Shown here piece after piece: positions 35,654 through 44,938 of a stretch of 44,938 nucleotides of DNA. The notes below the pieces were generated by a model. The model was not told the origin of the DNA. It worked only from the letters and a program-made list of their open reading frames with translations, and searched no databases. Each line of letters starts with the position of its first letter. Position 1 is the first letter of the stretch. The stretch covers positions 1 to 44,938 of the forward strand of contig QKAU01000063.1 of assembly GCA_003246265.1 (NCBI GenBank), read 5' to 3'. The stretch comes from Kiritimatiellales bacterium (GTDB lineage: Bacteria > Verrucomicrobiota > Kiritimatiellia > Kiritimatiellales > Pontiellaceae). The position numbers were made by a program, and so were the translations under genes.

Positions 35654-37276
35654 CTACCTGGCGAGCTCCTTCTTGAGGAGGCGGACGAACTTTTCGGCGG
35701 GCTTGTGCTCAGCGCCCATCATGCACGCCTGGATCCAGTTGCGCTCCATGAGGTAGTTGCTGCGGTAGCTGACCAGCACGCCGTGTTCCTTGAGCCGATC
35801 CCCGATCGCCACCGAAGAATGGACCGGCGGCAGGACGATGGTGACGACCGAGGGCATGGCGCACGCGTCGGGAGCCAGGATCGGGGCGTTGATTTCGGCC
35901 AACTTCCGGCGGATCGATTTGGACCATAGGCGGATGTCGCCGTAGCGCCTCGTCCAATCGTGGGACTGGAGGGCGGCGAGCAGGGCATAGACGAGATTGG
36001 ACTGGATGGTGAAGGGGATTCCCGCCTGCTGCTGGTAGAGTCCCAGGTCGAGGGCGCAAGGCAGGTCGTCGGGGGCGGGCTGGATGTCGTGGTTGTGGAA
36101 GACCAGCCCCAGCCCGGAGATCGAGGCCAGCCCCTTTCCGCTGGTGCCGGTGGCGAGATATACGCCATCGAGATCGACGGGCACGGTGCCGATGGAACTT
36201 ATGCAATCCATGCAGAGCTTGAGCCCGCGCCCGGCGCAAACCTGCTTATACGTTCCGAGATCGTTGAGTACGCCCGTGGAGGTTTCACAATGGGTTCCCC
36301 ATACCCAGCCGATGTCGGGATGCGCATCGAGCTCCCGTTCGATCCGACCCCGGTCGAAGGTCTGTCCTTCGGGAATCTCCAACGTGTGGAAGAAGAGCTT
36401 GGCCCCGTTGGCGTTCTTCACCAGGCGGCGGCCGAATTCACCGCTGACCAGGACTAGCCCTTTCCGGCCGAGCAGGGAGAGCTGGCCGGCAACGGCATCG
36501 TTGGCGAGCGTACCGGGCCCCATCATGATCTCGACCTGTCTGGCGTTGACCAGTCCGCACAGGAGCCCGCGCACCTTTTGGAAATCCTTCATGAAGCCCT
36601 CCCCCCGGTGCGAACAGGGGCGGTTCCGGTAGACTTCGGCCACCTGCTTGGCGTAGTCCACCGGCCCGGGCAGGAAGTTGAAGAGCATGGTGTCGTCGTT
36701 GGCTAGTTCGGGCGTGTCCCTGGCGAAGGAACGGGAACGCTTCTTGAGATCCTGGTAGGCCTCGAGCGTGAGGTACATCGGCTGGTACTGCGCATCGTCG
36801 GATCCGACCAGGGGCCCGAAGGGCACGAAGCCGAGGTACTGGTAGAGCTTGATCTGCCGGACCGTGCCGGAAATGACCGCCAGGTCGTGGCCGCAGTCGA
36901 TCGCATGCTGGACGAGCTGAGCAATGAGCCCCTGCGTGATCCGGGTGTAGCGGTATTCCTCCTCGACGGCAAGCAGGCGGATCTCGCACAGCGAACGGCC
37001 ATCCGGCAGATAGGTGTCAAGGTTTGCCAGCTTGGCATCGAGGGAGAAGGGCCGCTTGTCGCGGAAGGCGATCATGCCGGCAAGAACCCTGCGTTCCCGG
37101 TCGACACAGACGATGTAGGTGTTTTCCTCGTGGAACCGGTCGGCCAGTTTCCGCCGGCGGTTGGGTTCGTGCTGGGGAATCTCCTCGACGAAGGTCTTGT
37201 AGTTGAGGGCGTGGACCGCCTCGATCTCCCACGGCTCCTCCGCCACCTTGAATATGAACCCATCCAGCGAAGCCAT
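35654..37276 (-). CDS. GNAT acyltransferase fused to class V aminotransferase
   Basis: 540 residues from the ATG at 37276. Residues about 1-175 form a GNAT-type domain of the autoinducer-synthase/FeeM-like kind (NYKTFVEEIPQHEPN, CEIRLLAVEEEYRYTRITQG, YQYLGFVPFG), enzymes that often use acyl-ACP. Residues about 200-535 are a class V PLP aminotransferase related to alanine-glyoxylate/serine-pyruvate aminotransferases: MGPGTLANDAVAGQ, GTHCETSTGVLND, MDCISSIGTVPVDL, and the PLP lysine near 380 in ATGTSGKGLAS. The fusion suggests that an amino acid is made or used and then N- or O-acylated. It starts 1 bp after the stop of a PlsY-like gene, so lipid chemistry is likely. Confidence 0.85.
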   Translation of the reverse strand: MASLDGFIFKVAEEPWEIEAVHALNYKTFVEEIPQHEPNRRRKLADRFHEENTYIVCVDRERRVLAGMIAFRDKRPFSLDAKLANLDTYLPDGRSLCEIRLLAVEEEYRYTRITQGLIAQLVQHAIDCGHDLAVISGTVRQIKLYQYLGFVPFGPLVGSDDAQYQPMYLTLEAYQDLKKRSRSFARDTPELANDDTMLFNFLPGPVDYAKQVAEVYRNRPCSHRGEGFMKDFQKVRGLLCGLVNARQVEIMMGPGTLANDAVAGQLSLLGRKGLVLVSGEFGRRLVKNANGAKLFFHTLEIPEGQTFDRGRIERELDAHPDIGWVWGTHCETSTGVLNDLGTYKQVCAGRGLKLCMDCISSIGTVPVDLDGVYLATGTSGKGLASISGLGLVFHNHDIQPAPDDLPCALDLGLYQQQAGIPFTIQSNLVYALLAALQSHDWTRRYGDIRLWSKSIRRKLAEINAPILAPDACAMPSVVTIVLPPVHSSVAIGDRLKEHGVLVSYRSNYLMERNWIQACMMGAEHKPAEKFVRLLKKELAR

Positions 37277-37277
37277 C

Positions 37278-37868
37278 CTACGCCTCCTTGCGCGCCGCGG
37301 CCCCGGCGAAGGCCTTGCGCAAACGCTCCCGGTGTGCAAAAAGGATAATCACCGATGCCCCTGCAAGTGCCGCAACGGCATGTCCGGAATAGCCGAGGGC
37401 ATGCGCGGCGGGAGGAAGGAGAAGGAAGGCCGCAAGCCCGCTCAGGATGAAGCCGCGCCGGAAAACCATCAGCACCAGTGTGAAGCAGAGCAGTGCAAGC
37501 GCGAGCAGGGGATCGTAGGCCAGATAGGCCCCGATCGCCGTTGCAATGCCCCGCCCCCCATGGAAATGGAGGGGGAGCGGCCAGATGTGCCCAGCGATTA
37601 CCGCGACGAGTACCAGGGAAAGCGCGGGAGCGGAGACCTCGAAGTTGCGGGCCAGCACTACGGCCAGCACGCCCTTGAGCGCATCGCCGAGCAGGGTGAT
37701 GACGAAGCCCGGCCGGCCGAGCACCCGACCCACGTTGCGGGCGCCGACGCCTCCGCTACCCTGTTCGCGGATATCGAGACCGGTCCTGAACCGTACCAGG
37801 TAGTAGCCGGCGCAGATACCACCCAGCAAGTACGCGAACAGGATGCAGAGGATCTCCTTCCCGGTCAT
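37278..37868 (-). CDS. PlsY-like acyl-phosphate:glycerol-3-phosphate acyltransferase family protein
   Basis: 196 residues from the ATG at 37868. Multi-pass inner-membrane protein with the PlsY landmarks in altered form: GSGGVGARNVGRVLGRPG (canonical SGNPGATNV-type loop), GDALKGVLAV, GHIWPLPLHFHGGRGIATAIGA and AHRERLRKA. PlsY transfers acyl groups from acyl-phosphate to glycerol-3-phosphate. Changes in the first loop (GGVGARNV) may mean a different acceptor. It is directly upstream of the GNAT-aminotransferase gene (1-bp gap) and probably co-transcribed. Confidence 0.85.
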   Translation of the reverse strand: MTGKEILCILFAYLLGGICAGYYLVRFRTGLDIREQGSGGVGARNVGRVLGRPGFVITLLGDALKGVLAVVLARNFEVSAPALSLVLVAVIAGHIWPLPLHFHGGRGIATAIGAYLAYDPLLALALLCFTLVLMVFRRGFILSGLAAFLLLPPAAHALGYSGHAVAALAGASVIILFAHRERLRKAFAGAAARKEA

Positions 37869-37971
37869 GCACAACCCCCATGATGCGATTGTGCAACCAA
37901 TCTAACAGACTCCTAACCTTTTACAACGAGCAAGTGCGGCATGTTCCCGCAAAGCCGGAGCAAGCGCGGGA

Positions 37972-39588
37972 TCAGAGCAGGTTATACCGGCCGGGCGAGA
38001 TGATGTGGTTGGGATCGAGTACCTTCTTGAGGTTGGCGACAGTACGCCAGAAAGGGTCGTCCGCGCACACTACGCGATGCATGGAGTTGATGCCGACCCG
38101 GTATGGGGGGTAGCCCTGCTCCATGTAGCGCGCCTCCATCTCGTCTATGCAGGCATGGGCCTTCCGCATCTGCTCCGCATCGCGGCGGTCGAAGGCCAGG
38201 CTCACGACGCCCTCCATGGCCTTGGTATCCATCAGGTTCACGGTGATGGCCGCCTCGAAACCATGGCGGGAAAAGGTTTCGCGCGTGTCGCGCACCACTT
38301 CCAGAACAGTGCTGCCGGATGCAGGAAGGATCGGCAGACAGAAGAGCAGCCCGGCATTGGAATGGTCCGGGTCGGGCGCATCCAGATGCTCGTAGTCGCC
38401 TGCGGACCAGTAGACGGCCTTGAGGGCCTCGTCGGTCGCCTCTCCCCGGGTGAAGCCGTAGACCGGCTCGACGGCCCGGAGCATCATCGCCTGGCGACGG
38501 ATGGCAGGAATGAACGACAACGCCGAACCGAGCGTCTTCGCCCTTCGCACCAGGGCGTCGTCGAGGAACATGGTTTTGGAAAAATCCCCCGCGGCGTTGC
38601 GGATCTCCTTTTTGGCATGCCGCAAATGCGTCTTGGTTCCAAGTACTCCGATCGCGGCACTCCATGGTCCAAACCCGCCGTTCTCGAGCATATGCACGGC
38701 CTTGGCCCGCGTCGCTTCGCTTGCGGGCTGACCGGATGCCAGAAGTTGCTTATAAAGCAATGGGGCCAAGGTGATGTAGGAGCGCTCGCGGTTTCCCACG
38801 TGGGCGATGGTCGTAAAAACGCCGCGCGAACGAAGAGCTACCAGCGCATCGATGAGCCGGGGCAGTTTTGCTTCGTCATCGATTTTAACGATGGCGGCCA
38901 TGTGGGCGTCGGGTTTGGGCATAAGGTCGATGCAGGCGGAGACAACGATGCCGAAATTGCCTTGCGGAAAGAGCCCGTCGAGCGAGGGCCCCACGCCGTG
39001 GCGATAGAGGTTCCGGGTCCTGGCGTTCCCGTAATGGCCGAATCCGGTCTGGATAGTTTCACCATTGCCCAGCACGACCTGCATGTTCGATATCCCGTGG
39101 GCGCGGGAATCGAAGTAGCCGACACCGCGGTCCATGGCATTGCCGACCAGGCTGGTGTCCGACGTCGATCCGGTCACGTTGAGCATGAGCGGAAGCTTAT
39201 TTTTCCGGATGTGGTCGAGCAGTTGGCGCTGGGTTACGCCGGGCTCGACAACGGCATAGTGGAACTGTTCGTTGACTTCGATGATCCGGTCCATGCGGGA
39301 GAGGTCGATGATCGCAGCGCCATCGCGCACCGGCAGGCGGGAGCCCATGCCCCACTGCTTGCCGCGGCTGACAGGGTAGAGGGGAACGAGGAAGCGGTTC
39401 GCCGTCGCAACGATCCGCTCAACATCGCCGGCCGATGCGGGCCGCAGGACGGCAACGATCTCGCGGCTCGACCCACAGGCGCTGGCCCGGAAGGATTCGA
39501 GGCTGGCCGCATCGGCCACCACGGCATCAGCCCCGAGATCGCGCGCCCAGGCTTGGATCGCTGCTTCAAGGGAGGAGGGGGTGGCCAT
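37972..39588 (-). CDS. VAO/PCMH-type FAD-linked oxidoreductase
   Basis: 538 residues from the ATG at 39588. FAD-binding domain (about 40-220) of the vanillyl-alcohol-oxidase / p-cresol methylhydroxylase type: YPVSRGKQWGMGSRLP, YAVVEPGVTQRQLLDHIRKN, GNAMDRGVGYFDSRAHG and QVVLGNGE. The C-terminal end KKVLDPNHIISPGRYNL is the family's usual tail. Such enzymes oxidise para-substituted phenols or hydroxy acids and pass electrons to cytochromes or oxygen. No adjacent cytochrome subunit is present, unlike p-cresol methylhydroxylase. It is third in an operon after an FadL-type porin and a REC-kinase. Exact substrate unknown. Confidence 0.83.
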   Translation of the reverse strand: MATPSSLEAAIQAWARDLGADAVVADAASLESFRASACGSSREIVAVLRPASAGDVERIVATANRFLVPLYPVSRGKQWGMGSRLPVRDGAAIIDLSRMDRIIEVNEQFHYAVVEPGVTQRQLLDHIRKNKLPLMLNVTGSTSDTSLVGNAMDRGVGYFDSRAHGISNMQVVLGNGETIQTGFGHYGNARTRNLYRHGVGPSLDGLFPQGNFGIVVSACIDLMPKPDAHMAAIVKIDDEAKLPRLIDALVALRSRGVFTTIAHVGNRERSYITLAPLLYKQLLASGQPASEATRAKAVHMLENGGFGPWSAAIGVLGTKTHLRHAKKEIRNAAGDFSKTMFLDDALVRRAKTLGSALSFIPAIRRQAMMLRAVEPVYGFTRGEATDEALKAVYWSAGDYEHLDAPDPDHSNAGLLFCLPILPASGSTVLEVVRDTRETFSRHGFEAAITVNLMDTKAMEGVVSLAFDRRDAEQMRKAHACIDEMEARYMEQGYPPYRVGINSMHRVVCADDPFWRTVANLKKVLDPNHIISPGRYNLL

Positions 39589-39596
39589 GGATCGGG

Positions 39597-40784
39597 TCAG
39601 GCTTGGATCATGGATTCGGGACGCGCAAAATAGCCCAGCGCCGTGTGGGCCTGGGGCACCCGGACGGTCACGATCGTGCCATGTCCGGGCCGGCTTTCGA
39701 ATTCCAGCGATCCGCGGTGTTCCTCGAGCACCTTCTTGGTGATGAACAGCCCGAGTCCCGCACCCTTCTCGACCGTGGCTGTGTTGTCGAACGGTTCGAA
39801 TATCCAGCGCAACCGCCGGGTATCCACCCCACATCCATTGTCCCGCAACTTGATATCGATATCGTTGTTGCGCATGGCGAAGACGGCAACGATACTCGGA
39901 TCGGGCGTGTGCGCAACCGCGATGACGGCGTTGTCGACCAGGTTCTGCAGCGCACGCTTCATCTGAAGCCGTTCGCCGAGCATTTCGTACTGTTCCTCGC
40001 TCCCTTCCACCTCCACCGAAAAGGAGATGTCCGAATGGGCCGCGGCATCGCGGAAGCAGTCGTTGACCAGCCGCGGCAAGTTGAGGCGTTGGAGCTGGGA
40101 GAAGTCGAACCGGCCCAGCGCGCGCCACGCCTCCACCAGTTCGGCGCAGCGCTCCACGTTCTTCTCGATCTGGTCGAGGTATTCGTTCATTTCATCGGAG
40201 GTCGATTCCTGCTTCTCCTTCAGCTCGTAGTTGAGCAGGTCGAGGTAGCCGCGGATGATCGTCAACGGGTTGCGCAGGTCGTGGACCAGTTCGGCCGACG
40301 CCGCCCCGAGGGAGGTGAGCTTGTTGGTCCTTCCCACCTCGCGGCCGAGCGACTGCGTCATCCGCTGCAACTCCTCTTGGGCCTGCTTCTTGCGGGAGAA
40401 GAGCTTGCTGCGGTCGACATACTTCCTGACCACCGCCTGGATGTCGTCGGTATCGAAGGGTTTCTGGAGATAGTCGTTGGCGCCGTAGCGGATGGCCTGT
40501 TGTGCGGTCTCGAGGTCGCCGTACCCGGTCAGCATGACGATCGAGACGTTGGGATCGATCTCGCGGATCTCCTGGAGCCCTTCTATGCCGGTCTTTTCCG
40601 GCATGCGGATGTCCATGATGACCAGGTCGGGCTTTTTTTCGCGCAGAAGCTCGATCCCGCTATCCACGCGGTCGGCAAGGAATATGTCGTAATCGTACTT
40701 GAGAACCATTCTCAGGCTCTCGCGTGGGCCGCGCTCGTCGTCGATAACCAGCACTTTTCCGAGCAATTCCTTCGTTTCCACCAC
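39597..40784 (-). CDS. soluble receiver-histidine kinase
   Basis: 395 residues with the receiver first: Asp58 in LVIMDIRMPEKTG, Lys108 in QKPF. A coiled linker precedes the dimerisation/phosphorylation domain with His168 in SAELVHDLRNPLTIIRGY, followed by an HATPase (NLVDNAV, DNGCGVD, GAGLGLFI). There is no membrane segment, so it is cytoplasmic and probably controlled through phosphorylation of its own receiver. It lies 12 bp after the FadL-type gene and 8 bp before the flavoenzyme gene, so it is translated with them. No DNA-binding partner is encoded nearby. Confidence 0.93.
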   Translation of the reverse strand: MVETKELLGKVLVIDDERGPRESLRMVLKYDYDIFLADRVDSGIELLREKKPDLVIMDIRMPEKTGIEGLQEIREIDPNVSIVMLTGYGDLETAQQAIRYGANDYLQKPFDTDDIQAVVRKYVDRSKLFSRKKQAQEELQRMTQSLGREVGRTNKLTSLGAASAELVHDLRNPLTIIRGYLDLLNYELKEKQESTSDEMNEYLDQIEKNVERCAELVEAWRALGRFDFSQLQRLNLPRLVNDCFRDAAAHSDISFSVEVEGSEEQYEMLGERLQMKRALQNLVDNAVIAVAHTPDPSIVAVFAMRNNDIDIKLRDNGCGVDTRRLRWIFEPFDNTATVEKGAGLGLFITKKVLEEHRGSLEFESRPGHGTIVTVRVPQAHTALGYFARPESMIQA

Positions 40785-40796
40785 CCTGGCCTCCGT

Positions 40797-42014
40797 CTAG
40801 AACGAGTAGGAATATGTCAGACCCAGCAGGTCGGAATCAATCTCATATGTACCCGGAGCCGAACCGGTGATCGGACTGGTACGGTCGTCATAGATGCTGA
40901 AGGTGTAGGCCACATCCAGCGCGTGCCCGCCAACGGCATAGCCGAGGCCAAGACTCAGGGCATGGCGGTCGGCATCCGGCAGCAGCGGCGTGATGGTCTC
41001 ATCGGGAATCGGCGTCTCGATGAACGCATAGCCAGCACGAACCACCCAATGCTCGTCGAGCTGCCAGTCGCCCCCTACCCCGAAGGTGAAGGTATCGTCC
41101 CAGTTCTGTGGCAGGAGCAGGGGTCCATTGACACCTAGATCGGCGATCTGGGTCTTGGTGGAAGACCACTCAAGCCATTCGACATTGGCCTCGACCCGGA
41201 TGGCGTCTGTCAACTCGATGCCATAGCCGGCAGAAACCATGTTGGGATAGGTCACGCCCAGACCAAAACTACTGTTTGCCAGCGGAGCCCCGATTGTGCG
41301 CAGATCTCCCTCGTAGTCCAATTTGACTTCGCTCCGATAGGTGAGTACAGCTCTTTGCCGCCCATCAATCTGCCAGGTAATCCCGACATTGCCGCCATAG
41401 CCCATGCCATCCGCCTCAACATTGGCCGTGCCGGCAGGAGGCCCTCCCAAGCCGGTCAATGCGTTGAACTCGAGCTCCGAATAGAAGATGTCCGCACCGA
41501 GACCAAGGGCAAGATTGTCCCCCAGCCGGACAGCGATCGTTGGGTTGAAGTTCAGGAGCATGATCTCGGCCTGGTAAATGGACGCCGGCGCCGAAGGGTT
41601 GTACAGGTCGGTGGGGTTCCAATCAATGCCTTGGCCGAACGGGGTTGTAATTCCCAGACCCACCGCGACCCCCTCTCCCACTGGCAGGCCAACATACAGG
41701 TTGGGCAGTGGCACCCATTCGTCGTTGGAATCCACGGTTCCCGCGGGATTAAAAGGATTCGTATAGGAATTTTCGGTTCGCGCCAATGTAACGTCAACGA
41801 CCAGGGATCCGCTATCCTGAAAGGCGAGGTTCGCTGGGTTGTAGGAGATCGCGGAAGCATCGTCAACAAAGACCGCGTTGACGCCCGATTTCCCGATGCC
41901 TTCGGCGGTTGGAGGCGGATTCCGGTAGCCGTCGGCCAGGGCTGTGCCAGCAGTTGCAAGGGCCATGATGGTGATGGATGCTGCTACGGCCTGGGTCGGT
42001 GATTTCTTGCTCAT
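40797..42014 (-). CDS. FadL/TodX-family outer-membrane transporter
   Basis: 405 residues from the ATG at 42014. Signal peptide (AVAASITIMALATAGTALA) and N-terminal hatch-like segment (NPPPTAEGIGKSGVNAVFVD, then YNPANLAF) typical of OmpP1/FadL/TodX proteins, then a 14-strand-type barrel with segments such as LPNLYVGLPVGEGVAVGLGI and HWVVRAGYAFIETPIPDE, ending LGLTYSYSF with a C-terminal Phe. FadL family members let long-chain fatty acids or aromatic hydrocarbons diffuse across the outer membrane. First gene of the operon with the REC-kinase and VAO-type enzyme, pointing to uptake of a hydrophobic or phenolic substrate. Confidence 0.87.
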   Translation of the reverse strand: MSKKSPTQAVAASITIMALATAGTALADGYRNPPPTAEGIGKSGVNAVFVDDASAISYNPANLAFQDSGSLVVDVTLARTENSYTNPFNPAGTVDSNDEWVPLPNLYVGLPVGEGVAVGLGITTPFGQGIDWNPTDLYNPSAPASIYQAEIMLLNFNPTIAVRLGDNLALGLGADIFYSELEFNALTGLGGPPAGTANVEADGMGYGGNVGITWQIDGRQRAVLTYRSEVKLDYEGDLRTIGAPLANSSFGLGVTYPNMVSAGYGIELTDAIRVEANVEWLEWSSTKTQIADLGVNGPLLLPQNWDDTFTFGVGGDWQLDEHWVVRAGYAFIETPIPDETITPLLPDADRHALSLGLGYAVGGHALDVAYTFSIYDDRTSPITGSAPGTYEIDSDLLGLTYSYSF

Positions 42015-42259
42015 GGTGCGTACCCCTTCTGCTTTAGGTGGATGCCAATGGTTCAAACGCCCCCTTCCTAGCATCGGCTGTGCCGTTTGTCCACCTACAA
42101 TTTTGCCCATAGGTTGTGTAATAATCCTTGAACTATACAATATATTGACATTTACTCGGAACAAACTTGTACAGGGGTGCTCTTGCCATCTCCGCGCCCC
42201 GCCCCGGGAAATGGGCGAGCCTGCGGGATGCCTGCCACCATGGCGAGGGGGTCTTGAAC
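42015..42259. promoter_or_regulatory. divergent promoter region, FadL-type operon and ketosynthase
   Basis: 245 bp. The central part (about 42100-42170) is AT-rich and holds a 10-bp palindrome CAATATATTG (42138-42147) overlapping a consensus TTGACA (42145-42150) on the plus strand. No good -10 follows at 17 bp, so boxes are not assigned firmly. Confidence 0.35.
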
Positions 42260-43498
42260 GTGATCGGCAGAAACAGAGTGGTTATAACGGGCATCGGGGT
42301 ACTCGCCGCCAATGGCATCGGCAAGGATGCCTTCTGGAACTCCCTCCTCGCCGGAGAGTCCGGCATCGGGCCCATTACTCTTTGCGATGTCGAAAACCTG
42401 CCCTCGAAGATTGCCGGTGAGGTCAAAGGCTTTGATGTAAATGATTACACTCCATACAAGATCAAAGCAAAACGGCTTTCTCGAAATACACAATTTGCCG
42501 TGGCAGCTTCGCTGATGGCCCTGAAGGATAGCGGTATCGACCTGCAAAAATTCAAACCTAAAGCCCCCTTAGCGCTCGCACTGGGAATAAGTATGGCCGG
42601 ATTTGATTTCATAGAAACTGAAATTAGGCGCATAGTGGCGAAGGGGAACCAGTCGATGCTCCCTACTGTGGTAGGTTGCATACACATTGCATCGGCCAGT
42701 TCAGTAGCCGACATTCTTGGATTCCCCTGCACAATCTCAGTATTCTCAAACAGTTGCGTTGGCGGGATTGACGCCATTGCCAAAACATATGCCGATTTGC
42801 GAGATGGAAAGGCTGATGTAGCTCTAGCTGGAGGATCCGACGCTCCTATCGAAACATCTTTGCTTGCCGGCTTTTGCGCCGCCAGAATGCTATGCACTGA
42901 ATATGATAGCCCCGAAACTGCCAGCCGCCCGTTTGACCTGAAGCGCTCCCTAGGTATCTTAGCAGAAGGTGCCGCCATAGTTCTAATGGAAACACTCGAT
43001 CACGCCCTGGACCGCGGAGCCGAACCCCTTGCTGAAATAATTGGATATGGAACAGCATCGGATGCTACTGAAGAACCAGCCAGTGGCTTGGAATGTTCGA
43101 TGCGCAATGCCATGGCAAACGCTTGCATAGCTCCTTCGCAGGTCGGCTATATTTCTGCCCACGCACCAAGCGATCTCGTAATCGATCGGGTTGAAACCAA
43201 TGTGATAAAAAAGGTGCTGGGAGAACATGCCTATAAGATACCCATAAGTTCGATCAAGGGATCGACCGGCAACCCCTTGGCGGCAGGCGGAGCGATGCAA
43301 GTTGCCGCAACTGTAATTGCACTAAGAAGTGGAATATTACCTCCAACGGCAAATCTGGATATTAGAGATCCCGATTGCGACTTGAATTATGTGGAAGTTG
43401 CGACAACCTACAGCAATCGCAACACCGCTCTTGTTAATTCCCACGGAATCGGACGCGTCAACAGTAGCCTCGTACTTCAAAGGGCTGTATGTCAATGA
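42260..43498 (+). CDS. FabF-like beta-ketoacyl synthase with His-to-Asn change
   Basis: 412 residues from a GTG at 42260 (GAGGGGG eight bases upstream; a TTG at 42254 is also possible). KAS II start VVITGIGVLAANGIGKDAFW, GISMAGFDF, nucleophile Cys166 in SNSCVGGID, first His301 in SAHAPSD, Lys333 in SSIKGSTGN. The second catalytic His of FabF/KAS II (KS-x-x-GH) is Asn338, so the triad is Cys-His-Asn as in KAS III, in a KAS II fold. It might condense, only decarboxylate or only transfer. Codon use becomes AT-richer after about the first 55 codons. Its stop overlaps the next ATG (ATGA). Confidence 0.85.
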   Translation: MIGRNRVVITGIGVLAANGIGKDAFWNSLLAGESGIGPITLCDVENLPSKIAGEVKGFDVNDYTPYKIKAKRLSRNTQFAVAASLMALKDSGIDLQKFKPKAPLALALGISMAGFDFIETEIRRIVAKGNQSMLPTVVGCIHIASASSVADILGFPCTISVFSNSCVGGIDAIAKTYADLRDGKADVALAGGSDAPIETSLLAGFCAARMLCTEYDSPETASRPFDLKRSLGILAEGAAIVLMETLDHALDRGAEPLAEIIGYGTASDATEEPASGLECSMRNAMANACIAPSQVGYISAHAPSDLVIDRVETNVIKKVLGEHAYKIPISSIKGSTGNPLAAGGAMQVAATVIALRSGILPPTANLDIRDPDCDLNYVEVATTYSNRNTALVNSHGIGRVNSSLVLQRAVCQ

Positions 43499-44938
43499 GC
43501 CCATTCAAGATATATTTTGTCGTCGTATTTCTGGTCAACATTGCCTTGGGAATCAGCGTTTTTGCCACGAACCATCGAAGAACAGCCAACCAGCTTTATT
43601 CGTTCTTATCCGTGATCGCAGCCTTCTGGCTATCATCCAATTGGACCATCCTCACGGCATCCGATGCTAATACTGCACAGATGGGGATCAAATACGCAAC
43701 CGCTATCGCTATTTTCATCCCAGCTTCGTGTCACCTGCTGCGACTCGCAATCCTGTATCCCTTGGAGCGTTGGAGCAGAATCATCTACCGAGCACGCTAC
43801 TTGCTCGTAGCTTGCATGGCTGTCTCCATTCTCTGTTTTTCAGAATATTTTATTCTTGAGGTTCGGCTGCCCAATTCCAATTCGAGCCAGGTGCCTGAAC
43901 CTGTCTATGGCTGGGCATACTTGGTTTTCACAGCATTATTCATAGGGATGGTCCTCTCCCTCCTAATTTCATTTCGACGAGACAGAGTAAATCTGCTCGG
44001 ATTCCAGCGAATAGAGTTGGACTTCATAACCATGGGCTACTCCCTAGCGCTTCTTACCGGCACAGCCTGTGGATTGATTGTCAACATTGTCACGGGATCC
44101 TCGCAAACCGTACCCATGGCAAATACCACCAGCATCCTAGCCCTTACACTCATCGTGTCCTATGGAATCGCCACTAAGAGGATTTTAGGTATAGCCACGA
44201 TTTTCCGTAACATTATTGCTTACACTTTGCTGACCTGCTACCTCTTAGTTCTCTATTTCTTCATCCTACATGGCTCATCCTGGCTATTAAACAAGATGCA
44301 TTTGTCGTGGATGGCAGTACCGCATGTACTCTCAACATTGGCGGTTGCATTTTCAATGTCTCCCGCACACGGCAAGCTCCAAAAAGTAAGTGCGTTGCTT
44401 GTCGCCACAAAGTCAATGAACGTGGCAGATGCCATGAAAAAAGCGGGTAATATTTTCCAAGCCGTTAGTACAAAAAGAGCGTTGCAAGACCAATTCACCC
44501 GACTTCTCGCACGGGTCCTTGGCTCCGAAAGCATTACGGTACTCCTATCTTCGGATACTAGCTTTGTGCAAAGCTTTCCCCTGCCGCCTCCATCTGAAAC
44601 AGGACTTCAGGTTCAACTCTCGGATGCGGTAACTCGACTACTTGAAAAAAACAAGGAGCCTCTGTGCAAGGATAGCCTGATCCGAACAAGGAACACAAGT
44701 GATGTAGCAGAGGCTATACGAATCCTAGAACAGCTCTCCACCAATGTTGCAGTAGGCGTTTTTTTCAAGGCTAAATTGATTGGGGTTGTATTATTCGGCC
44801 CAAAGAAGAACGGGGCCATTTATGACAAGACCGAACAGGATGCCCTGCAGATCCTGTGCAACCAGTTTGCCGTGGCATTGGAAAACGCCCGTCTCTACAC
44901 CGAGATGCAGGACAACAAGATCCGCAACGACATCATGC
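43495..44938 (+). CDS. multi-pass membrane sensor with GAF domain, probable histidine kinase (3' end cut)
   Basis: The ATG at 43495 overlaps the ketosynthase stop; the frame is open to the end of the window (481 codons). Eight or nine membrane helices lie in about residues 4-285 (for example YFVVVFLVNIALGISVF, YATAIAIFIPASCHLL, ACMAVSILCFSEYFIL, LLTGTACGLIVNIV), like the N-terminal membrane region of PrsK-type histidine kinases. A GAF-type domain follows (about 320-470), ending DALQILCNQFAVALENARLY, then the start of a coiled coil that would lead to HisKA. The kinase domain is outside the window, so the class is inferred. Most of it is AT-rich, but the last 130 bp return to GC-rich codons. 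Confidence 0.75.
   Translation, partial: MSPFKIYFVVVFLVNIALGISVFATNHRRTANQLYSFLSVIAAFWLSSNWTILTASDANTAQMGIKYATAIAIFIPASCHLLRLAILYPLERWSRIIYRARYLLVACMAVSILCFSEYFILEVRLPNSNSSQVPEPVYGWAYLVFTALFIGMVLSLLISFRRDRVNLLGFQRIELDFITMGYSLALLTGTACGLIVNIVTGSSQTVPMANTTSILALTLIVSYGIATKRILGIATIFRNIIAYTLLTCYLLVLYFFILHGSSWLLNKMHLSWMAVPHVLSTLAVAFSMSPAHGKLQKVSALLVATKSMNVADAMKKAGNIFQAVSTKRALQDQFTRLLARVLGSESITVLLSSDTSFVQSFPLPPPSETGLQVQLSDAVTRLLEKNKEPLCKDSLIRTRNTSDVAEAIRILEQLSTNVAVGVFFKAKLIGVVLFGPKKNGAIYDKTEQDALQILCNQFAVALENARLYTEMQDNKIRNDIM

Follow-up and report, generated by a model that had tools for sequence, protein, structure and literature searches.

In the agr system, a synthase or modifier gene lies beside the gene for a multi-pass receptor kinase, the signal is a peptide and pherotypes occur; in CqsA/CqsS and RpfF/RpfC, a small-molecule synthase gene lies beside that of a multi-pass membrane kinase. 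The receptors for the signals made by PqsBC and PpyS are transcription factors and are not known to include adjacent receptor kinases, and the kinase AtoS is not known to have a ketosynthase partner. ComQXPA of Bacillus has a receptor, ComP, with a variable membrane part and a conserved cytoplasmic part, strains divided into pherotypes, and overlapping genes (PMC4008528). Two signal synthases of the ketosynthase type have been described: PqsBC, in which PqsC has the Cys-His pair but not the Asn and the His is dispensable for Cys acylation (PMC4807248), and PpyS, which has Cys-His-Asn (PMC4578411). FabF (KAS II) has a GFGG loop 1 and a conserved loop 2 (PMC7138838).

The window, meaning the whole stretch of DNA analyzed here, is the complete contig G000:C10 (44,938 bp) of a Pontiellaceae genome. 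Near its end, a gene for a FabF-fold ketosynthase-like protein (KS) precedes that of a membrane-bound sensor histidine kinase (HK1, Table 1). The co-divergence of these two proteins, described below, suggests an undescribed bacterial communication system. A literature search, conducted mostly outside subscription journals, recovered no paper on a ketosynthase paired with a receptor kinase in Verrucomicrobiota, Kiritimatiellota or Lentisphaerota.

Table 1. Coordinates of the KS-HK1 locus and its neighbors in the window, with the basis of each assignment.
Feature	Position	Strand	Basis
FAD oxidase related to 4-cresol dehydrogenase / vanillyl-alcohol oxidase (VAO)	37972..39600	-	17/31 core loci with room
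RRHK, receiver-HisKA-HATPase protein, 395 aa	39597..40784	-	domains; 51/56 core loci with room
FadL/TodX-family outer-membrane channel, divergent from KS	40797..42014	-	Pfam PF03349 3.6e-53; 43/59 core loci with room
Sigma-54-like promoter site toward FadL, CGGCACAGCCGATGCT, 9/11 consensus positions	42070..42085	-	consensus scoring
KS, FabF-fold ketosynthase-like, 412 aa	42260..43498	+	ORF, Pfam, model, structure search
Hypervariable cassette, approximate extent from KS codon 38 to ~HK1 codon 430	42371..44778	+	borders taken from relatives
Cys166 codon, retained nucleophile	42755..42757	+	C in 73/74 sensor-linked KS
His301 codon, place of FabF His303	43160..43162	+	core n=67: H 49, Y 11, N 6, D 1
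Asn338 codon, place of FabF His340	43271..43273	+	core n=67: N 50, C 8, H 5, S 3, D 1
His395 codon; Phe or Leu in 6 compared FabF	43442..43444	+	n=74: H 59, R 14, gap 1
HK1, first 483 of 838 codons, 7TM-GAF-PAS-histidine kinase, rest on contig C63	43489..44938	+	ORF, joined contigs, domains, model
144-bp identical overlap with start of contig G000:C63	44795..44938	.	sequence identity

The ketosynthase-like protein and its active site

The KS reading frame runs from a GTG start at 42260 to a stop ending at 43498, and its product has the thiolase-like ketosynthase fold and both Pfam domains of FabF / KAS II (PF00109, 1.6e-31; PF02801, 3.1e-23). In a Foldseek search, the AlphaFold model (pLDDT 89.5, pTM 0.91) was nearest to FabF structures (B. 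subtilis FabF, TM 0.91, 36% identity). KS scored 344.5 bits with the NCBIfam fabF model TIGR03150, under the curated cut-off of 493.75, and library scans returned only ketosynthase-type models and one weak thiolase model. The protein does not belong to the FabH/thiolase branch (KAS III or chalcone-synthase type), as the best PDB matches by both sequence and structure were FabF/KAS II and the matched Pfam domains are those of KAS I/II, nor is it a chain length factor (KS beta), a type in which the Cys is replaced. In phylogenetic analysis, 73 sensor-linked KS formed a single clade (SH-aLRT 99) separate from 24 FabF; the L201 homolog, a partial ORF with Glu aligned at the place of the Cys, was left out of this tree. 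Because the genome carries a separate canonical FabF (contig G000:C60; residues checked at L002) and the sensor-linked KS group apart in the tree, an identity as ordinary FabF was rejected. The KS of locus L065 showed a 69% match to that of the window.

Active-site positions were assigned by aligning the window KS to solved FabF structures, together with an alignment of 74 sensor-linked KS. The original prediction, made from the letters of the window, of a KAS II-type ketosynthase with a Cys-His-Asn triad was borne out: Cys166 is the nucleophile, His301 occupies the first His position, and Asn338 aligns to FabF His340 at the second. A true pocket His was sought as evidence against that prediction, and both His were found together in none of the 74 sensor-linked KS (0/74). 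Asn is the commonest residue at the second His position (50/67 core KS), but it is one of several replacements (N, C, S, T or I), and some members miss the first His instead. The combinations at residues 301/338/395 in core KS (n=66) were H/N/H in 35, Y/N/R in 11, H/C/H in 7, N/H/H in 4, H/S/H in 3 and others in 6. Neither His is present in core KS with N/N (2/67) or Y/N (11/67) or in distant members with W/T, W/N or N/I, a pattern under which KS may be inactive. Other residues were strongly conserved among the 74 proteins, with Lys333 or its Arg variant in 73 (one gap) and Glu312 and Asp309 in all 74. The HGTST motif is altered across the family (HAPSD in the window), GFGG of loop 1 is GIGR in the window KS, and loop 2 is shorter in the members compared.

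Pseudogene decay was rejected as the general case because the Cys, Lys/Arg333, Glu312 and Asp309 are retained despite deep divergence. Ordinary decarboxylating elongation is unlikely on the basis of these features: both His never occur together, neither HGTST nor GFGG is preserved, and loop 2 has lost length. Loading of an acyl group on the Cys is possible by analogy with PqsBC, where acylation of the Cys is independent of the His. Residue 395, a new His or Arg in 73/74 sensor-linked KS, replaces the Phe that precedes the gate loop (Phe in 5/6 and Leu in 1/6 compared FabF), and catalytic takeover is a candidate role for it. A distant subgroup (L207, L209, L210 and L212) has Trp at the first His position and shorter kinases, and its KS is still paired with a sensor.

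The sensor kinase, gene pairing and conserved neighborhood

The HK1 reading frame is cut off by the end of the contig. Joining G000:C10 to G000:C63 through their 144-base overlap gave an HK1 ORF of 838 aa and so the extension to a kinase proposed earlier. Next come HK2, a second histidine kinase of 665 aa (46002-47999 in joined coordinates), and then a universal-stress protein; the relative G005 (L033) has the same gene order as the window. The HK1 ATG at 43489 lies inside the end of KS, which agrees with the predicted overlap with a multi-pass GAF sensor gene; the overlap is 10 nt. The GAF domain gave a weak Pfam GAF_3 match (20.4 bits vs. a cut-off of 27) alongside structural GAF matches, and the PAS, HisKA and HATPase domains were read on the G005 ortholog. 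In the sensor model (pLDDT 82.7), residues 1-234 form a seven-helix part (7TM), and the GAF-matching part comes next. The best structural matches of the 7TM model were class C GPCRs (Z 18.9, rmsd 4.6, 222 aligned residues) in a comparison where mostly helical models without a clear match reach Z of about 14, and this model is suggestive only of a receptor-like arrangement, not of kinship to class C GPCRs.

The best-scoring models for the HK1 and HK2 orthologs were those of AtoS, at 307 and 209 against an equivalog cut-off of 646. A sigma-54 regulator after HK2 in L179 scored best with AtoC (445.8 vs. an equivalog cut-off of 714), and the regulator at this place in L048 is a receiver-Fis protein; in the window genome, an NtrC-type gene is absent directly after HK2. 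The PrsK model of the XrtA/PEP-CTERM system (TIGR02916, cut-off 300 bits) gave 88.7 bits for both the HK2 ortholog and RRHK, with HK1 absent from the 25 of 44 matches covered.

A total of 81 loci including the window were collected; L214 was dropped (no match), and fragments L060-L064 were kept outside all counts. HK1 follows KS in 65/65 core loci with room (one of these KS, in L184, is a remnant) and KS precedes HK1 in 63/65, the exceptions being L176 and L191. The spacing of the KS stop and the HK1 start falls within -13 to +7 nt in 59/68 loci, with -4 the commonest value, and the distant KS are accompanied by a sensor in 7/7 cases. Linkage of this order rejects a chance pairing of the two genes, the outcome that had been named as refuting the original prediction, and corresponds to the linkage found in quorum-sensing systems composed of a synthase and a receptor kinase. 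In L176 (G159), HK1 stands alone. L191 (G302) has KS deleted with the receptor and remaining cassette kept, resembling a receptor-only strain, and in L184 (G164) KS is cut to its first ~80 codons with the receptor retained.

The distribution was assessed from a pattern-limited scan of genome contigs and from 387 sampled genomes belonging to the phylum; a sensor match at E 0.001 was present in 64 of these 387. In a reverse search with a KS profile, every genome above 463 bits (n=44) was also in the sensor table, as judged by reading the two tables side by side; below that score, canonical FabF made up most of the matches, alongside a small number of divergent sensor-linked KS (e.g., G124 and G158). 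Named members of the system belong to Verrucomicrobia, Spartobacteria, Chthoniobacterales and Lentisphaerae, beside the Pontiellaceae of the window.

KS-HK1 is generally flanked on one side by the FadL-like channel, RRHK and often the FAD oxidase, and on the other by HK2 (59/63 core loci with room). Spartobacterial and distant loci are without FadL. Possible tailoring genes, encoding VAO-type oxidases, SAM methyltransferases, O-methyltransferases and B12-radical-SAM proteins, vary by lineage, and a shared ACP or reductase cluster beside KS was not apparent in the cluster listing of the loci. Elsewhere in the window, a minus-strand gene (35654-37339; cluster C4, in 10 loci of the set) encodes a PhnW/AepZ-related class-V aminotransferase fused to a GNAT domain that matches the N-acyl amino acid synthase FeeM (PF21926, 7.5e-10), and a PlsY acyltransferase gene (37278-37874) adjoins it. 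In ten FadL-less loci, a protein of up to ~840 aa lies beside RRHK (cluster C5, including L076 6088-8541); the L076 protein, the sole member scanned, had no Pfam match.

Intergenic regions were scored for sigma-54-like sites with an 11-position consensus, which we take to represent the sigma-54 promoter. Sites matching at least 9/11 positions faced FadL in 28/42 FadL-KS intergenic regions, compared with 1.6 expected from shuffles, and faced KS in 2/42, compared with 1.3 expected. At the FadL-less loci, sites with a score of at least 8 faced RRHK in 13/13 as a raw count.

Covariation of KS with the seven-helix domain

Pairwise and tree-based tests were restricted to the loci (n=44) in which KS, HK1, HK2 and RRHK were all long enough, 14 of them from the window's own family. 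Across the 44 genomes, the correlation of KS distances with those of HK1 parts, corrected for HK2 and RRHK, was 0.48 for 7TM, 0.26 for TM8-9, 0.25 for GAF, 0.11 for PAS and 0.20 for the kinase. This domain correlation was exploratory; the trees, the within-family test and the approximately unbiased (AU) test came later and were not blind to it. Within the family (14 genomes), KS and 7TM were correlated at r 0.61 (partial on HK2 0.61, p 0.0005, jackknife 0.55-0.72), compared with 0.27 for TM8-9 (p 0.0125), 0.05 for GAF and 0.00 for PAS plus kinase. Mean identity in the family was 51% for KS and 35% for 7TM, against 70% for PAS plus kinase, 72% for HK2 and 80% for RRHK. The species pair L036 and L051 shares 95% identity in RRHK, 89% in PAS-kinase and 93% in HK2, yet 45% in KS and 25% in 7TM.

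The family formed one clade (support 100) in trees of the HK1 C-terminal part, HK2 and RRHK and was split in the KS and 7TM trees, where the AU test rejected its forced monophyly (p 2.5e-5 and 1.35e-3, respectively). The same behavior extends beyond the family: L048 groups with its order-mates L052, L054 and L055 in the HK1 C-part tree and stands apart from them in the 7TM and full KS trees. In blastn comparisons of 182 ordered pairs, the alignable fraction of DNA was 0.98 for RRHK, 0.89 for KS codons 1-37 and 0.13 for the rest of KS, then 0.04 for HK1 1-234, 0.05 for 311-430, 0.99 for 450-830 and 0.99 for HK2. In nearly all pairs, alignable DNA reached as far as approximately KS codon 37 and resumed near HK1 codon 450, with hardly any in the interval.

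Segment 101-150 of KS is the least conserved and follows 7TM best (r 0.57-0.59). Within it, residue 112 of the window KS (M, L, T or A, depending on the type) aligns with Ile108 of B. subtilis FabF, an acyl-pocket position. The sensor domain therefore varies with the candidate synthase and the kinase core is conserved, with the exception of the sister genomes L042 and L044, in which the KS and 7TM types are clearly mismatched. By analogy, this is the variability pattern of quorum-sensing pherotypes. The earlier idea of KS as the producer or binder of a putative acyl ligand that HK1 senses gains indirect support from this co-divergence, which is strongest at the acyl-pocket segment.

Candidate signaling role and comparison with known systems

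We consider it somewhat better than an even chance that KS synthesizes a signal for which HK1 is the cognate receptor. This synthase-receptor reading is based on the near-invariant gene pair, the Cys retained without both His, and a KS that is swapped along with the receptor part but not the kinase. The single KS clade, the sigma-54-like sites ahead of FadL and the precedent of PqsBC also speak for it. Cys166 would be loaded with an acyl group from acyl-ACP or acyl-CoA, and KS would pass it to an acceptor without ordinary chain elongation, yielding a lipid-like, acyl-derived molecule that differs between lineages as pherotypes. The 7TM domain of HK1 would bind this product, and HK1, HK2 and RRHK may relay phosphate to an NtrC/AtoC-type sigma-54 activator, located after HK2 in relatives, which would turn on the FadL operon. 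The members with neither His, the KS losses (L191, L184), the lone HK1 (L176), the L042/L044 mismatch, a hypervariable GAF start that tracks neither KS nor HK2, the scope for joint recombination of neighboring DNA and the window genome without an NtrC-type gene directly after HK2 count against this reading.

The rival to which we give most weight, although we consider it unlikely, is that KS makes nothing and serves as an acyl-thioester sensor subunit: acylated, or binding acyl-ACP or acyl-CoA, it would dock on HK1 and report the acyl pool, and uptake of external fatty acids through FadL would then be turned on according to need. The lack of a complete His pair (74/74) with the Cys kept is consistent with such a role, as are the gene overlaps, most commonly of 4 nt, which fit equal production of complex partners, and the FadL-family channel behind a sigma-54-like site, which fits fatty-acid uptake. 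However, KS covaries with the membrane-embedded 7TM and not with the cytosolic GAF, PAS and kinase parts, the likeliest docking parts for a soluble protein; a sensor of a universal acyl pool should need no lineage-specific swapping, and FadL is missing from the spartobacterial and distant loci.

Hitch-hiking is less probable still. KS and the 5' half of HK1 could form one recombining, fast-evolving segment, the covariation then reflecting shared transfer and not a ligand and its receptor; the two genes are adjacent, the hypervariable block is uninterrupted and ends at similar places in the four pairs inspected, and L042 and L044 show that the types are separable. Joint recombination of such neighbors can add to the correlation. 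In contrast, FadL, on the other side of KS, is also variable in the family (54% mean identity vs. 80% for RRHK) and is uncorrelated with KS (r -0.10), so DNA closeness alone is insufficient to explain the KS-7TM covariation. The start of GAF, nearer the kinase, is hypervariable too and tracks neither KS nor HK2. Furthermore, the divergence is deep (7TM mean identity 35%), not that of a recent import, and KS is kept nearly everywhere.

We regard as improbable, and more so than hitch-hiking, a regulated biosynthesis in which KS makes an envelope lipid or pigment and HK1 senses another cue and merely controls the pathway. The possible tailoring genes in some cassettes would fit it, but the sigma-54-like sites face FadL-RRHK rather than KS (28/42 vs. 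2/42), the shared ACP or reductase cluster is lacking from the listing, and KS-7TM covariation is not predicted. Rhodopsins hold retinal inside a seven-helix domain, and a KS that likewise supplies a hydrophobic group held within 7TM would fit the receptor-type seven-helix fold of the model, but such a cofactor would leave lineage-specific swapping unexplained and is otherwise unsupported, making this very improbable.

Extending the synthase-receptor reading, we tentatively propose, at slightly under even confidence, a new class of cell-cell signaling in Verrucomicrobiota, Kiritimatiellota and Lentisphaerota, comprising a FabF-derived acyltransferase, lineage-specific acyl signals, a 7TM histidine kinase, pherotype cassettes and a sigma-54-controlled FadL output. 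If true, large bacterial groups for which the literature search recovered no described signaling of this kind would gain a predicted synthase, receptor, relay and target promoter, all of them testable; a fold that elongates fatty acids would have turned signal maker, both catalytic histidines never being kept; and pherotype-like cassette exchange would serve a small-molecule rather than a peptide signal.

KS has in common with FabF / KAS II the fold, the Cys nucleophile, Lys333, Glu312 and Asp309, and differs in never having both His, in the replaced HGTST and GFGG, in its short loop 2 and in the His/Arg for Phe398. HK1 and HK2 orthologs and the sigma-54 regulator resemble AtoS/AtoC in scoring best against these models, below their cut-offs. 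PqsBC and PpyS are likewise signal-making enzymes of the ketosynthase fold, but they belong to the FabH/OleA branch, whereas KS is of the FabF branch; CqsA/CqsS and RpfF/RpfC are set apart, by description, by enzyme families other than ketosynthases. ComQXPA resembles the arrangement here in that the gene of a synthase or modifier adjoins that of a multi-pass receptor kinase with a variable membrane part and a conserved kinase part. Unlike ComQXPA and agr, which use peptide signals, the system described here has a ketosynthase as the adjacent gene and a sigma-54-type output.
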